DNA of 22,846 nt, taken from the IMG/VR virus record IMGVR_UViG_3300045999_009115, positions 1-22,846 of that record. One strand, written 5' to 3'. The notes under the pieces were generated by a model. The model made no database searches and was not told the DNA's origin. It was given only the letters and a program-made list of their open reading frames with translations. The position numbers were made by a program, and so were the translations under genes. The stretch is from a virus. Of the stretch, positions 12,111 to 22,846 are shown one piece after another (positions within the stretch are counted from its first letter, which is position 1; the number at the start of each line of letters is the position of its first letter).

Positions 12111-13058
12111 TCAGGTGTTGCCTTTAATTACAAAAATGCGATCAACGGCATCAACTAGAAGAGCGTATTGCTGCCAAGCGTGAAGCACATAATCAGCTGG
12201 CTGCTTTGTAAAATCAGTGTAATCTTGATACTCCACTCCACCCATTAGAGCAATGGTACCAGCATCTTCACCGATTAGAACAACCTTATCAGTTGGAATT
12301 TTCTTAGCACGGATATCAGGTAGGCTATTTTCAAACTGCTGTGGAATTTGTACAATCGGAATACCTTTATAAGTTGTAATAAGGTTTCTACCATAAAATT
12401 CAGTAAATTGCTGGGTTGGAATAGCAGTACCACCTGATTGAACGTTAACTGGAACGCTAGTTGCAAAGTCATAAATTGGGTAAAGAGCTTTACGAGTGCC
12501 CATAATTGATTTAACACTTGGAGCACGATCTAGTAGCGATTCAATAGCGTTGTCAAGTACTGTGCGTGTAATACCTGTACTTGAAGCGTCTGTGTAATTA
12601 CTTGGAGTTGTTGAAGCATTCCAAAGCGTATTAAGTAGATTAAATACGCGATTTGCAATTTCTTCTTCTAGAGTTGCTGAAAATTCACTGCGCATCTCAC
12701 CCACTGTTTGAAGATCACCTGACTCAAGTTCACGCAGGTTTGCTTGAGTACCGACAATAATCTGATCAAACATAAAAGCAGCTTTGTCTTGATTTACAAC
12801 AGTATCAACAAGGTGATTTGTACCGGGAACCATACTACGAACTGGGTACCTGCCCTTTCGAACCTTATGCATAACACTGTCGCCCGGATTCAGCTGGCGT
12901 ACCGGCATGAATGAGCTAAATAGGTCAAGCGTAAGAAAGTTAGGGTTCATGGTTTTAACGATAATTTCGGCAAGAGCTGATCTGCCCTTTGATCTTTCTA
13001 CGCTCTTTGCAGCCTCAGCAATTGCGCGGCGTAGTTCTGATTCATTCATCTGTGTCAT
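12111..13058 (-). CDS. Major capsid protein, HK97 fold
   Basis: This 315-residue protein starts at ATG 13058 with AAGGAG 11 nt upstream. An N-terminal helix with a charged patch (ELRRAIAEAAKSVERSKGRS) leads into TLDLFSSFMPVRQLNPGDSV. A long strand region (HKVRKGRYPVRSMVPG) has the look of an E-loop, and the helix EFSATLEEEIANRVFNLLN resembles the spine helix of the HK97 fold. The C-terminal P-domain-like part includes TYKGIPIVQIPQQFENS and KVVLIGEDAGTIALMGG then DYVLHAWQQYALLVDAVDRIFVIKG, a typical capsid ending. It follows a protease-scaffold gene and a decoration-like gene, the usual head order. No scaffold or delta domain is fused to it, in agreement with a separate scaffold gene. Confidence 0.88.
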   Translation of the reverse strand: MTQMNESELRRAIAEAAKSVERSKGRSALAEIIVKTMNPNFLTLDLFSSFMPVRQLNPGDSVMHKVRKGRYPVRSMVPGTNHLVDTVVNQDKAAFMFDQIIVGTQANLRELESGDLQTVGEMRSEFSATLEEEIANRVFNLLNTLWNASTTPSNYTDASSTGITRTVLDNAIESLLDRAPSVKSIMGTRKALYPIYDFATSVPVNVQSGGTAIPTQQFTEFYGRNLITTYKGIPIVQIPQQFENSLPDIRAKKIPTDKVVLIGEDAGTIALMGGVEYQDYTDFTKQPADYVLHAWQQYALLVDAVDRIFVIKGNT

Positions 13059-17059: not shown

Positions 17060-18985
17060 GTGTCGGTTTTTACAGAGTTTAATCAGGAGTTTTTAGATAA
17101 ATACGATCCAAAAGATATTCCATGGGGGTTTAATGGTTTAGGTTATATTGTCTATAAACGCACATACGCTCGTGTTCTAGAGGACGGTTCAGGCACTGAA
17201 GAGTGGAAAGATACAATTGTACGTGCAATTAAAGGAGCTCAAGCAATTGGAGCAGGGTACACGCAAGACGAAGCTGAACGTATGTTTGACCATTTGTTCA
17301 ACCTACGTGGCACGTTCAGTGGTCGTGCACTTTGGCAACTTGGTACAAAGCTTGCACTTAACTATGGCGATTCGCTGAATAACTGCTGGACAGTGTCAAT
17401 TCGCAAGCCAAAAGACTTTTTGTTTATTTTCGACGAGCTTATGATGGGTGGTGGCGTCGGCTATAGTGTAAAACGTGCTGATATCAATGAGCTTCCTAAG
17501 GTAAAGAAAGGCGTTACAGTTACACACGCTGCTAGTAACGATGCTGATTTTATTGTACCAGACAGTCGTGAGGGCTGGGTTAAACTGCTAAAGCAAGTAC
17601 TAGATGCGTACTTTGTAACAGGCAAGTCATTTACATTCTCAACAATTCTTGTACGCGGCAAGGGTGAGCCCATTAAGGGATTTGGTGGTAAAGCTTCAGG
17701 GCCAATTCCACTTATTGAAGGAATGGGTAAGATTAGCAAAGTTCTTAAATCACGTGAAGGCAAAAAACTACGCAGCGTTGATGTACTTGATATTGCAAAT
17801 ATTATTGGTTCAATTGTAATTAGTGGTAATGTTCGTCGCTCTGCACAAATTGCTGTTGGTGACAGTGACGATATTCTTTACCTTCGTGCAAAGCGTTGGG
17901 ACTTGGGCAACATCCCCAACTGGCGTGCATTTTCTAACAACACAGTTGCAGCAGATTCTGCAGATTACTTAAGTGATGAATTCTGGGAAGGGTATAATGG
18001 AAATGGAGAACCGTATGGACTCTTCAATCAGCGCCTATCTCAAGAACAAGGGCGTCTTGGGGAACGTATCGAAGATAAATGTGAACTGCCCAATCCGTGC
18101 GCAGAGCAAATTCTTGAATCTTACGAGAGTTGCAACCTCGCTGAAATCTATCTCCCGAACGTTCGAACAGTAGAGCAGTTTAAAGATGTTGCTATGTTGC
18201 TGTACAAGACATGCAAAGCTATTACTCGTATGGAGTACCTGTATGAGGAGACTAATGAAGTTATTCACCGTAACTCACGAATTGGGATTGGTATTACGGG
18301 TATTGTTGAATCGCTTGACAAGCTAGAGAACTGGGCTGATGCTGTATACAAGCATCTGCGAGAGTTTGATGCAGAGTGGAGCGATCTAAACAAAACCACC
18401 CGCAGCATTAAGCTTACGACAGTTAAGCCAAGTGGAACGCTTTCACTACTTGCAGGCGTTACACCCGGCGTTCACCCTGCCTATGCAAAGTACTACATTC
18501 GCCGTGTTCGCATGGCCAGTGACGATGCGCTTGTCGAATACTGCCGCAGCAAAGGCTATGACGTAGAGTACGCCCGTAACTTTGATGGCTCGACCGATTA
18601 CAACACGTCAATCGTGTCATTTCCTGCTAAGAGCAGCAATAACGCAATTCTGGCAAAAAACATGAGTGCGATTCGCCAGCTTGAACTTGTCAAGCTCGCA
18701 CAGACACTTTGGAGTGACAGCAGCGTGTCAGTGACCGTGTACTATCGCTTCGAAGAGCTGCCAGCTATTAAGCAGTGGCTTGAAGAGAATTATGAAACAA
18801 GTGTGAAATCTGTGTCGTTCCTACTGCACAGCGATCACGGCTTTGATCAGGCACCTTATGAGGAAATTACCAAAGAGTTGTATGATGAGTTGGCGGCTAG
18901 GGTCAAAGTGGCTGACGCTTATACAATGAGCGGCGACATGCTCAGCATTGAGGATTGTGAGGGCGGGGCTTGCCCAGTACGATAG
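17060..18985 (+). CDS. nrdJ: Adenosylcobalamin-dependent (class II) ribonucleoside-triphosphate reductase
   Basis: This 641-residue enzyme starts at GTG 17060 behind GAAAGG. It reduces ribonucleoside triphosphates to deoxy forms using a B12-generated thiyl radical. Key residues are visible with the spacing of the Lactobacillus leichmannii enzyme: C109 (LNNCWTVSI) as one redox cysteine, N345-P-C347-A-E349 as thiyl site and acid, and C358 (SCNLAEI) as the second redox cysteine, 11 residues after C347. The C-terminal shuttle pair is C633-x4-C638 (CEGGACP). The glycine-rich segment GGGVGYSVKRAD is also typical. At 641 residues it is shorter than the roughly 740-residue bacterial form. The 3' half is noticeably less AT-rich than the 5' part and the flanking genes. 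It depends on host cobalamin and thioredoxin. Confidence 0.95.
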   Translation: MSVFTEFNQEFLDKYDPKDIPWGFNGLGYIVYKRTYARVLEDGSGTEEWKDTIVRAIKGAQAIGAGYTQDEAERMFDHLFNLRGTFSGRALWQLGTKLALNYGDSLNNCWTVSIRKPKDFLFIFDELMMGGGVGYSVKRADINELPKVKKGVTVTHAASNDADFIVPDSREGWVKLLKQVLDAYFVTGKSFTFSTILVRGKGEPIKGFGGKASGPIPLIEGMGKISKVLKSREGKKLRSVDVLDIANIIGSIVISGNVRRSAQIAVGDSDDILYLRAKRWDLGNIPNWRAFSNNTVAADSADYLSDEFWEGYNGNGEPYGLFNQRLSQEQGRLGERIEDKCELPNPCAEQILESYESCNLAEIYLPNVRTVEQFKDVAMLLYKTCKAITRMEYLYEETNEVIHRNSRIGIGITGIVESLDKLENWADAVYKHLREFDAEWSDLNKTTRSIKLTTVKPSGTLSLLAGVTPGVHPAYAKYYIRRVRMASDDALVEYCRSKGYDVEYARNFDGSTDYNTSIVSFPAKSSNNAILAKNMSAIRQLELVKLAQTLWSDSSVSVTVYYRFEELPAIKQWLEENYETSVKSVSFLLHSDHGFDQAPYEEITKELYDELAARVKVADAYTMSGDMLSIEDCEGGACPVR

Positions 18986-19114: not shown

Positions 19115-19735
19115 ATGGATTTTAAACAACGCTATAAAGAGCTTTGGGTGCAGTATGAACAAGCTTATGATTTATCAACTTTAAATGACGCAAATGATAA
19201 ATCTAATCTTGAAATGATTATTAGAAATGCTGCACTTATTGAATTGCTTCAAGAAAAGGTTACAGAGCTTGCAGAAGATGACGCTGCTGGTAATATTATG
19301 GAAATTAAAAAGATCTCTGATAGCGTTAGAGATTTAACAGATCGTAATATACAGCTTGAACGTCAATTAGGAATTGATCGAAAGTCACGTAAAAAAGATA
19401 ACGAGACTACTACAGCTGAGTATATTTTAATGTTAAAAAGTGCAGCTCAAGAGTTTATCGAGCGACGTATTATTAAAGTATATTGTCCTGATTGTAAAAT
19501 CATGGTTGGTAGGATTAGTCCAGTTCATGAACATACTGCATTTAACGCTTATTTTAAATGTAGTCAGTGTGAAAAGTTATCCATAATTGGAAGAACCGAC
19601 AGAGATGTATTCTTTGACCTTGAAAAGAACGACAGAGATTGGAGACGTAAGTACCCAATTGAGATAAAACATCCTAAAAAATCTAAAGCTGGTGAAATAG
19701 GTATTGAACCAGAGTTAATGATAGAGGACGAATAA
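19115..19735 (+). CDS. terS: Probable terminase small subunit with C-terminal zinc ribbon
   Basis: This 206-residue protein starts at ATG 19115 behind AAAAGG and ends one base before terL. Residues 30-95 are helical (IIRNAALIELLQEKVTELAE) and end in QLERQLGIDRKSRKK, a pattern I know from small terminase subunits of several phages. Residues about 100-118 are another helix. A zinc ribbon follows: C124-P-D-C127 and C149-S-Q-C152. The tail is charged and ends in acidic residues. Small terminases recognise the packaging site and stimulate the large subunit. The gene order terS-terL supports this. A zinc ribbon in this position is unusual but suits DNA binding. The identification is moderate because no classical N-terminal HTH is evident. 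Confidence 0.65.
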   Translation: MDFKQRYKELWVQYEQAYDLSTLNDANDKSNLEMIIRNAALIELLQEKVTELAEDDAAGNIMEIKKISDSVRDLTDRNIQLERQLGIDRKSRKKDNETTTAEYILMLKSAAQEFIERRIIKVYCPDCKIMVGRISPVHEHTAFNAYFKCSQCEKLSIIGRTDRDVFFDLEKNDRDWRRKYPIEIKHPKKSKAGEIGIEPELMIEDE

Positions 19736-19736
19736 A

Positions 19737-21863
19737 ATGGCGCTTAGAGAGAAATTAACAGAGGCTGAATTAGATTTAGTTGAAGTTTTAGAAGATCCTA
19801 TATTCTTTAGTGAATTTATGAGATCTACCAGAGATGCATCTCCAATTAAATCAATGTGGCCTAAGCAGGAGTTTAAATACAGGTGGTATCAAAGAGATCT
19901 TATTACAGACCAAAATGAATATGTAGTGCTTACAGGTGGTCGTGCAGTTGGAAAGTGTCAACCTGCAAGTTCTAAAGTTTACACAACTAAAGGTTATAAA
20001 TCAATTTATAAACTTTATAAAGACGGAGGAATTTTTGAAGTTTGGGCTAGGAATAACTTTGGAAACTTTGTCCAACGCAGAGCTGCTATTGTAAAAGATA
20101 AAAGAACCGATGTTTACGAAATTAAAACAGAATCTGGATATAGTATAAAAGGAACAGCAAATCATCCTATACTTACCACTCAGGACTATGTTAACATAGA
20201 AGACCTTAAAGCTGGGGATAATGTCATAGTAACAACTAAACTTCCATGGAATAGTAGTCAATCACTCTGGAGGAGTGCAGAGTTACGATTTTTAGGTTAT
20301 AGGTTCTTTGACCATAGGTGGTTTGTTGAAATACCATTTAAACCTCGTTTTAAAGCTATAGAAATTGATTATAAAAATATAGCTGAAGAGTTAAAGTTAA
20401 AATGGGTTCATAAAGGCGATCAAGTTACAATAGTAAGACCACAAGATCATAAAGGGAAAAATCCAATAGTTTATGCTGCTATTCAATTAAACTGGATTAG
20501 ACTTTACGAAGCTTCTAATATGAGCTCATACCCAAAGCATGTTCCTGAAACTTTAATGAACGAGAATATTAATAACATAAAGTTATTTCTAGAATCTCTA
20601 ATGTCGCAATGGGGTGAGTTTAAATCTAGTAAAGAGGTAAGACTTCAATGCAACTTTGAAAAAACTGCTTTAACATTTCAAGAGTTATTTCAACGTTGTG
20701 GGGTTGAAATGATGATAGATGGTACAGCATTAGTTAATGCTACTCCTGAAGCCGCATCTTACTTTTATGCTACATTTGATCTTCAAGGAGTTGCAACTAA
20801 TGTCAAAGCTCCTGTAATACCTGAAACTAGACCTGATAAGATAGTGTCAATAGAGAAAGTTCATGAGTTTGTTAAAACATATGCATTATATGTTTACGAC
20901 GATCATAACTATATATCAGGTAATATCTGTTGTCACAACTCCCTTGTATTAGAAGATAAGCAAATGTTTGACATTATGAATCAAGATTTTCAGCTTCCTG
21001 ATACTAAAGAATTGTTGATTACCACACCAAATCAAGCCCAGCTTGAACCTATTTATGGAAGGTTAATTACAAGAGTAACAACTTCTCCATTAACAAAAGA
21101 CTTTTTACAAAATCGTATTAATCGAAGCCTCGGAACAATGGATTTTAGATTTAATGGAATTCAAGTAATGCATAGAGCTCGTATTGCGGGTACTAAAGAA
21201 AGCAATCTAGTAGGCTTGCACATTCCTCGTGCAATCCTAGACGAAGGTCAGCTTTACCCAACATCTGCACTTACTCAATTAACACCAGCTCTAAATGTTT
21301 GGGAAAAGAATGTTCAATTCTTTGTAGCAGGCGTTCCAAATGGACTTAGAAACAGTGCACTTTATACAACTTCATCTAAATTACCTAGATTTAAATGGTA
21401 TCGAGTGCCGTCTGCTAATAATCCATTTTTTAGCAAAGATGACTACTTAGATGCGCTGAGGCGCTATGGTGGTGAAGATAGTGATGAATTTCAACAACTA
21501 ATCTTAGGAAAGCATGGAACAGCAGCGCTGAGCGTTATTCATAGGGATCAAATATTACAAAAATCTTATGAATTTTATTCATACAGGTACTCTAATTCTG
21601 AAGTTGATAAAGGTATACCATTTAATCAATTTTTAGACCGTCATGAGTTTGGAAATCCATCAGCTGTAATAGCAGCAATTGATACAGGTTTCACAGATCC
21701 AACTATTATTAGCATTTTAGGTTTTATTGATAATAAACGTTGGAGATACCTAGCACGGTATAAAGTTCAAAGAGTACCATTCCCCATACAAGAAGAAATA
21801 ATCGACTGGCTTGATGATTTTTATAAATTTGATCAAATTGCCATCGACATTGGGGCAGGGGGT
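19737..21863 (+). CDS. terL: Terminase large subunit, exon 1 (contains an intein)
   Basis: ATG 19737 is one base after the small subunit stop. The packaging motor ATPase shows Walker A GGRAVGK (67-73) continuing with S402 after the intein, Walker B AILDEGQ (D502, E503), and the nuclease motifs AAIDTGFTDPT (D649, D654) and IAIDIGAGG (D704). Exon 1 ends exactly at codon 709, base 21863. Unspliced translation would add RQHCSL and stop at 21884 inside the intron. After intron removal the frame continues at 22692. The mature protein thus needs RNA splicing and protein splicing. Removing the 328-residue intein leaves 381 residues from exon 1 plus exon 2, and the full length lies beyond the right edge. 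Confidence 0.93.
19956..20939 (+). mobile_element. Intein in the TerL Walker A P-loop, with degenerate LAGLIDADG endonuclease domain
   Basis: The 328-residue insertion occupies TerL residues 74-401. It starts with Cys74 (CQPASSKVYTTKGY, block A). Block B is GTANHPI with H143, block F is VYDDHNYISGN (387-396 region), and it ends with H400-N401 before Ser402. These are the residues needed for protein splicing, so the domain appears active. The middle (about residues 165-365) resembles a LAGLIDADG endonuclease: first motif FLGYRFFDH (185-193, D192), second motif FLESLMSQWG (284-293), where the usual acidic catalytic residue is replaced (W292 in the Asp position). The endonuclease is probably inactive. 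The insertion site is between GK and S of the P-loop, the most conserved point of the gene. Confidence 0.9.
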
Positions 21864-22691
21864 AGACAACATTGCTCCCTTTAAATCTAACTAACACGGC
21901 GAAAGTCCCACTGGGATAACACCGTTCCGAGCTATTAAGCAGGAGTAGAGACTATGAGCAAACAAGCGCTAAAGGTTTTGTACGCATGTATGTTGGGTGA
22001 TGGCTACACCAGTAAGCCAATTAATAGATCTTGTAGATTTAGCATTAAGCAAAGACATGATCACAGAGACCATCTAGAATATCTAGAAGATCAACTAAAC
22101 CATTTGACCACATTTCACTGGAGAGATATTCCACCTCAGGAGTACACTATTCGTGGAAAGCCTGTAAAAAGTCAAAGACTTTTTGAAATTAGAAGTAAGT
22201 ATCATCCAATTTTTACAGAAGTTCGATATAAGGCTTATATGGATGGTCATAAAGTAGTTGATCCACACATGCTTACATTTTTGGACGCAGAGTTTCTTGC
22301 AATCTGGTATCAGCAAGATGGTTATATGCATCGCATTAGGGATTCTAAAAACCCGACACCCGGTGTCGTACTCTGCACAGATCGTTTTTCATACGCTGAT
22401 CATGAGTTATTAAGACGTGCCATAATTGAACGAACTGGTTTTATTTTTAACATTCAAAGATTTGCTAAAAGTAAAGCAGGTCATCAAATGTATAGATTGC
22501 ACATGACTCGAAAACAAACAGATCAGTTTTTTGAATACGTTCGTCCTCACATTCAACCTTCGTTTGAATATAAAATCACACGTTAGAACGAGATTCTTCA
22601 CTCGTAAGAAATAGTCCGAACTGCATAGCAATATGCAGAGACTGGCAGAAATGATCAGTCCATGTGCCTAGCACATAGTAACAATACATTG
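21864..22691 (+). mobile_element. Group I intron in terL with readable core and splice sites
   Basis: The 828-nt element begins after exon ...AGGGGGT. P1: that exon end pairs with GCTCCCT (21874-21880), including the required U-G at the splice site. P10: CATT (21870-21873) pairs with the first exon 2 bases GGTG. P3: TCTAAC (21886-21891) with GTTAGA (22582-22587). P4: ACGG with CCGT (21922-21925). P5: TCCC/GGGA. P7: GACTA (21950-21954) with TAGTC (22612-22616). The R-like segment GTAGAGACTA is not standard in every base. The S-like segment is AAGAAATAGTCC. P8: ACGAG/CTCGT. Three further hairpins follow, and the element ends in G at 22691. The open frame lies between P7 5' and P3 3', where group IA introns carry P7.1/P7.2. 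The exon frame is restored exactly. Confidence 0.9.
21954..22586 (+). CDS. LAGLIDADG homing endonuclease encoded in the group I intron
   Basis: This 210-residue protein starts at ATG 21954 with AGGAG 8 nt upstream. It has two LAGLIDADG-type motifs: LYACMLGDGYT (D16) near the N-terminus and FLAIWYQQDGYM (D122) in the middle, in the manner of the LAGLIDADG_2 (PF03161-like) family. It continues with LCTDRFSYADHELLRRAI and ends IQPSFEYKITR. Both acidic residues are present, so it looks catalytically competent, making a staggered cut in intron-less terL to spread the intron. The A of the start codon is the last base of the P7 5' strand, and the stop codon lies in the P3 3' strand. A folded intron core should therefore hide the start region. 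An added maturase role is possible but not shown. Confidence 0.9.
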   Translation: MSKQALKVLYACMLGDGYTSKPINRSCRFSIKQRHDHRDHLEYLEDQLNHLTTFHWRDIPPQEYTIRGKPVKSQRLFEIRSKYHPIFTEVRYKAYMDGHKVVDPHMLTFLDAEFLAIWYQQDGYMHRIRDSKNPTPGVVLCTDRFSYADHELLRRAIIERTGFIFNIQRFAKSKAGHQMYRLHMTRKQTDQFFEYVRPHIQPSFEYKITR

Positions 22692-22846
22692 GGTGGCATT
22701 CAAATAATGCAGTCTTTGACTCAAAGAAATGAATATCAACATAAGAATTACGATAAGCGTATATTACCTGTTCAATTTGGTGAAAAGGTTACAGTTGGAT
22801 TTACAACTGAAGGCGAAGAGCTTGGAAGTACAGCAAAGTCTTATGG
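22692..22846 (+). CDS. terL: Terminase large subunit, exon 2 (continues beyond the right edge)
   Basis: Exon 2 starts GGT GGC ATT CAA and reads GGIQIMQSLTQRNEYQHKNY then DKRILPVQFGEKVTVG to the edge with no stop. Joined to exon 1 it gives IAIDIGAGG-GGIQIMQSL, a normal continuation of the TerL nuclease domain after its second acidic motif. The last two bases belong to an incomplete codon. Only a part of the C-terminal nuclease domain is in the window. Confidence 0.9.

Follow-up and report, generated by a model that had tools for sequence, protein, structure and literature searches.

A viral terminase large subunit gene predicted to depend on both RNA and protein splicing

The terL locus and its relatives

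The DNA analysed here, referred to as the window, is a 22,846-base virus contig from IMG/VR whose last gene is terL, encoding the terminase large subunit (TerL). The gene lies on the plus strand, as do all of its parts described below, and extends in two exons from 19737 to 22846, where it runs off the contig end. It was identified by a match to phrog_2 (terminase large subunit; 1.6e-18) and by motifs aligned with relatives, namely Walker A (GGRAVGK-S), Walker B (ILDE) and the nuclease sequences AAIDTGF and AIDIGAGG. In alignment with the annotated TerL of GX15bay and with the TerL clade defined below, Walker A, Walker B and the nuclease Asp follow one another in TerL order; the third acidic nuclease motif falls beyond the contig end.

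The N-extein (19737-19955, residues 1-73) terminates in the Walker A sequence GGRAVGK, which is followed directly by T or S in the contiguous GRAVGKT/S of intein-free relatives. The C-extein part of exon 1 (20940-21863, Ser402-Gly709 of the precursor) is gapless at both joins with relatives. The reading frame 19737-21884 is taken up again at 22692, where exon 2 starts with GGIQIMQSL (22692-22846); this exon is collinear with the TerLs of L052, L096, L097 and L110 and is cut after 51 codons, so that about 90 C-terminal TerL residues lie outside the contig. Taken together, terL very probably carries an intein as well as a group I intron, two unlike insertions that are each predicted to remove themselves by splicing. 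Genes of this kind are easily misannotated in metagenomes as truncated terminases.

Just upstream of the terL operon, a class II (B12-dependent type) ribonucleotide reductase is encoded at 17060-18985, intron-free here and about 50% identical to those of Maribacter phage Panino and Caudoviricetes ctYwJ313. A 206-residue protein whose four Cys form two CxxC pairs (19115-19735) precedes terL and is kept in the TerL clade (35-43%; also in L135 and L136).

Among the phage records searched, the TerL of GX15bay is the closest, at only about 22% identity. Searching IMG/VR with either the C-extein or the intron endonuclease as a single query returned no relatives, nor did a TerL profile including the distant GX15bay sequence; relatives were reached solely via the neighbouring nrdJ (class II ribonucleotide reductase). 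The TerL of L052 found in this way is about 39-45% identical to that of the window, is intron-free and has an intein at the same site (N-extein identity 54% over residues 1-74). A profile built from the window and L052 gave 31 loci, and later profiles added L122 and L131-L136. The window belongs to a TerL clade of nine lineages (support 100/100). The contig of one intein-bearing member, L136, is binned with an uncultured Arenicella (Pseudomonadota) genome, which is either a hint of the host or a binning error.

An endonuclease-degenerate intein in the Walker A motif

The intein (19956-20939, 328 amino acids) is of class 1, with a Cys at position 1, a terminal HN and Ser at position +1, and splits the Walker A motif between Lys73 and Ser402. 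It matches Pfam Intein_splicing (E=4.6e-12), and the splicing residues pointed out in the earlier note between Walker A GK and S are all present: Cys74, the block B sequence TANH ending in His143, His400-Asn401 and Ser402. These residues are kept across the clade except for S in place of T in L097, while the block F His varies among relatives. The boundary is fixed by intein-free TerLs, which read through GK-S/T without a gap (contiguous GRAVGKT or GRSVGKS), as the alignment proposed in that note had been expected to reveal. The structural model (mean pLDDT 83.9) has the Hint fold; its best PDB match is TliVMA (7qsu; E=1.3e-16, TM 0.71), other matches being the DnaB and RecA mini-inteins, and its top structural matches are endonuclease-bearing inteins.

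Between approximately 20274 and 20781, the nine-lineage alignment and motif reading delimit a degenerate LAGLIDADG region. Motif 1 reads LGYRFFDH and motif 2 FLESLMSQWG, in which Trp replaces the catalytic acid. This acid is absent from motif 2 in all nine lineages: its place is taken by W, F, I or Y in all but L136, where the motif itself is disrupted. The window intein thus does not have the two LAGLIDADG motifs with catalytic acids expected of a mobile intein, and it is probably unable to home.

Descent of the intein

An intein occupies the Walker A site in every one of the nine lineages of the TerL clade. The search patterns sat in the exteins, so that there was no selection for the intein, although nine lineages are a small sample. 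Extein and intein distances are strongly correlated (Mantel r=0.897, p=0.0001), the groupings L096-L131-L052 and L097-L136 are common to the intein and TerL trees, and intein identity (18-61%) is below extein identity in every pair.

In the sister clade, by contrast, inteins sit at several positions. L109 has a Walker A intein, L112 (795-1982) has one directly after the Walker B DE (VDE/C...KN/SGYY) and in L113 the intein adjoins the first nuclease Asp (GIDLGY/C...GN/TEPTA); the LAGLIDADG motifs are intact in all three. The terL DNA of L113 (5961-6995) and L105 (849-2405) is 98-99% identical, and L105 is without that intein; they form an apparent filled/empty allele pair, a pattern expected of recent movement.

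That the window intein still homes actively and owes its presence in nine lineages to repeated recent transfer is very unlikely. While its LAGLIDADG fold is retained and sister-clade inteins appear to be mobile still, the loss of the motif 2 acid argues against homing, and an intein tree that follows the TerL tree, with intein identity lower than extein identity throughout, argues against recent transfer. On these sequence comparisons, the endonuclease-degenerate intein looks instead like an old, fixed resident inherited vertically with terL.

For the endonuclease remnant, dN/dS in the L052 group is about 0.05, similar to the extein value, and between L131 and L133 it is 0.26 compared with 0.18 for the C-extein, on few changes; these values indicate constraint on the remnant, which is strong in the first group and moderate in the second. 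It could be imagined, if with little confidence, that the intein of this clade has been domesticated: it would be retained in every lineage since the packaging ATPase matures under the control of its splicing, the dead endonuclease would have a structural or regulatory role, and the intron would provide a second gate on TerL, sensitive to G nucleotides.

A group I intron in the nuclease domain

The group I intron (21864-22691, 828 nt, phase 0) ends with a terminal G at 22691. U21863 is the last base of exon 1 and 22692 the first of exon 2, with the join five codons past D704, exactly as the earlier note had placed it. Since 828 nt amount to 276 codons, the frame is kept on splicing, also as proposed. 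At this position seven relatives have no intron (L052, L096, L097, L110, L131, L135 and L136), and they join precisely at the residues predicted. They read AIDTSTGGGGLHIV, GIDAGSGGGGLQIV, AIDLGAGGGGLGIM and GIDAGAGGGGTPIM at the intron site, and the spliced window sequence, AIDIGAGG/GGIQIM, aligns with them gaplessly; intron-free TerLs have an ungapped DxGxGGGGxxI across the junction. The intein and intron junctions are both fixed by such gapless relatives, and the refuting alignment named in the earlier note, with relatives joined at other residues, was not observed. A misplaced splice site was considered in view of surplus junction glycines relative to the distant GX15bay and Moorella phage TerLs, and was dismissed as closer relatives share the GGGG.

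The pairings P1, P3, P7 and P8 claimed for the intron are all present, and P4, P5, P6, P9 and P9.1 can be added. P1 joins the exonic strand AGGGGGU (21857-21863) to GCUCCCU (21874-21880) through seven pairs, including the U.G needed at the 5' splice site (U21863.G21874). Taken alone it is not above chance, as 7 bp can form at 14 of the gene's 909 U positions, and for this reason P1 by itself was dismissed as proof of an intron. L122 has an intron at the same site with the exon codon GGC where the window has GGG, both encoding Gly, and its guide sequence is altered to match, giving P1 as GGCGGU/GCUGCC.

The core was studied in an alignment of nine introns with related endonucleases (terL three times, nrdJ, nrdA, nrdB and SPA01), from which the open reading frames (ORFs) were excluded. 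P3 pairs UCUAAC (21886-21891) with GUUAGA (22582-22587), five of its six pairs being compensated. P4 (ACGGCG/CACCGU) encloses P5 (GUCCC/GGGAU) at 21896-21925, as seen from covariation and RNAalifold, and is followed by the P6 hairpin (GCU/AGC, 21931-21940; 3/3 pairs compensated). P7, formed by GACUAU (21950-21955) and AUAGUC (22611-22616), is near-invariant in the nine introns. The P8 hairpin (ACGAG/CUCGU, 22588-22605) was obtained with RNAalifold and, independently, by single-sequence folding, and the P9 (CUGCAU/AUGCAG) and P9.1 (GACUG/CAGUC) hairpins at 22621-22660 have 10 of 12 pairs compensated.

Across P3, P4, P5, P6, P7, P9 and P9.1, 22 of 36 pairs are compensated and 96.6% of cells pair; none of 500 shuffles matched this fold support, and slides likewise remained far below it. 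RNAalifold returned the same nested helices together with P8, a structure-free search recovered P3 with about the same spacing to P4 and P7 in eight introns out of nine, and the window core alone gave z=-3.26 in a single-sequence fold. The window intron therefore has a P3-P9 core with the conserved P7. On Rfam's general group I model (RF00028) it scores only 22.8 bits (E=0.003), below the gathering score of 50, and the introns of relatives are similarly low at 22-32 bits, probably because an ORF of about 630 nt splits the core. An Rfam match to U54 (E=1.6) was treated as chance. Extra sequence (P7.1/P7.2) between the P7 5' strand and the P3 3' strand is a mark of group IA; in the window this interval holds the endonuclease ORF.

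A dead or mis-bounded intron was ruled out as a candidate by P1 and core covariation. A related proposal is that the intron no longer splices and that terL is split, exon 1 giving a truncated ATPase with a partial nuclease and the rest being unused or separately made. In its favour, the unspliced frame reaches a stop at 21884, within seven codons of the intron start, and exon 2 is preceded by a short ATG frame (22662). Against it, the P1 guide strand of L122 differs from that of the window in step with a synonymous change in the exon, covariation across nine introns supports a core that the window retains intact, and exon 2 is in frame and conserved with intron-free relatives, which makes loss of splicing highly improbable.

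The intron endonuclease

A LAGLIDADG homing endonuclease ORF of 210 amino acids (21954-22586) matches Pfam LAGLIDADG_2 (1e-20). Both motif acids, D16 and D122, are invariant in ten relatives, and this endonuclease, unlike that of the intein, looks intact. Two independent invasions of one gene, as put forward in the earlier note, agree with an intein found in nine of nine lineages and co-diverging with TerL and an intron found in three of nine, at two sites. To that account may be added that the intein seems to be the old, fixed resident with a degenerate LAGLIDADG region, and the intron the element with an apparently intact endonuclease.

On reading of the sequence, the ATG of the ORF is located inside P7, eight bases downstream of an AGGAG (21941-21945), and its stop inside P3. 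Because of this overlap at both ends, translation of the endonuclease and folding of the ribozyme should compete with or exclude each other.

Related introns with endonucleases of the same family interrupt nrdJ, nrdA and nrdB in L124-L129, L003 and L005. In L124, a related intron is found in a capsid-like gene akin to that at 12111-13058 of the window.

History of the intron within terL

Three of the nine TerL lineages have the intron: the window and L122 at the same site, and L110 at another terL site (VFCCGV/PNGWRDG, 870 nt). The intein, too, is found in the terL genes of L110 and L122. The endonucleases of the three terL introns group together (99/97) and are separate from those of ribonucleotide reductase and capsid genes. 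In the TerL tree, a placement of L110 as sister to the window and L122 was rejected (AU p=0.0012), whereas the window and L122 as sisters were not (p=0.115).

The simplest reading of these relationships would be that one terL-dwelling intron lineage changed site within terL, and the intron looks still mobile. GGGGU ends both terL 5' sites, that of the window and L122 and that of L110, and would have let P1 form at either of them, though five bases are only suggestive. Separate arrivals at the two sites from outside the terL lineage, with no change of site, are possible but doubtful. They would fit the position of the L110 TerL, which is not sister to the window and L122, and the wide distribution of the intron family in ribonucleotide reductase and capsid genes; the single clade of the three terL endonucleases, apart from those other genes, speaks for a change of site within terL, with the reservation that few sequences are known.

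Predicted maturation of TerL

The intron would fold in the pre-mRNA, an external G would attack after U21863 and the exons would be joined, removing the in-frame stop at 21884 and restoring the nuclease domain. Translation of the spliced mRNA would yield a precursor with the intein between the Walker A Lys and Ser, in which Cys74, His143, His400-Asn401 and Ser402 would bring about class 1 protein splicing, leaving GGRAVGK-SLVLEDK. TerL would thus be complete only after both RNA and protein splicing. As Lys and Ser of the P-loop lie on opposite sides of the intein and unspliced translation stops at 21884, we infer from sequence that both reactions take place and that packaging needs both. The LAGLIDADG enzyme of the intron, translated from its own start inside P7 and presumed active, would carry the intron into intron-free terL genes, while the intein, its endonuclease being degenerate, would persist by descent.

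Comparison with known systems

Each of the two elements is already known, as is the combination of an intron and an intein in one gene. SPbeta nrdE contains a group I intron and an intein (PMC3653736); like terL of the window, it is a single phage gene with RNA and protein splicing, but it encodes a ribonucleotide reductase and not a terminase. In a limited search of the main texts of open-access papers, no terL carrying an intein together with a group I intron was found.

The mycobacteriophage TerL1-a inteins sit between the Walker A Lys and the next hydroxyl residue, the same insertion point as here, although Thr follows there and Ser in the window (PMC5050341). The TerL inteins tested in that study splice and cut, whereas in the window clade the endonuclease motifs are degenerate and, in the window, an intron is added (PMC5050341). 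Group I introns in terL of Bastillevirinae, ICP1 and Jug phages are spliced in vivo; in the available text of these reports, their endonucleases are HNH/VSR-like or free-standing T5orf172, compared with LAGLIDADG in the window, and no intein is mentioned in the same terL (PMC11878797; PMC10448857; PMC12363816). The TerLs of Microcystis phage Mic1 (PMC7156551) and of Delta crAss-like phages (PMC7886860) are interrupted twice as well, but both insertions are inteins; in Mic1 one interrupts the ATPase and the other the nuclease domain, as in the window (PMC7156551). LAGLIDADG introns of the Pseudomonas phages vB_PaeP_FBPa8, HHBS10_2 and SPA01 have the same RNA fold and endonucleases about 30% related. 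Those of FBPa8 and HHBS10_2 lie in nrdB, and the endonucleases of all three fall outside the terL intron clade.

The locus suggests an intron lineage that has moved from one site to another within a single gene. It also provides a natural test of why inteins persist when they no longer home: an endonuclease-degenerate intein retained in nine diverged terminase lineages stands beside a sister clade whose inteins are intact, one of them being found in only one of two nearly identical terminases.
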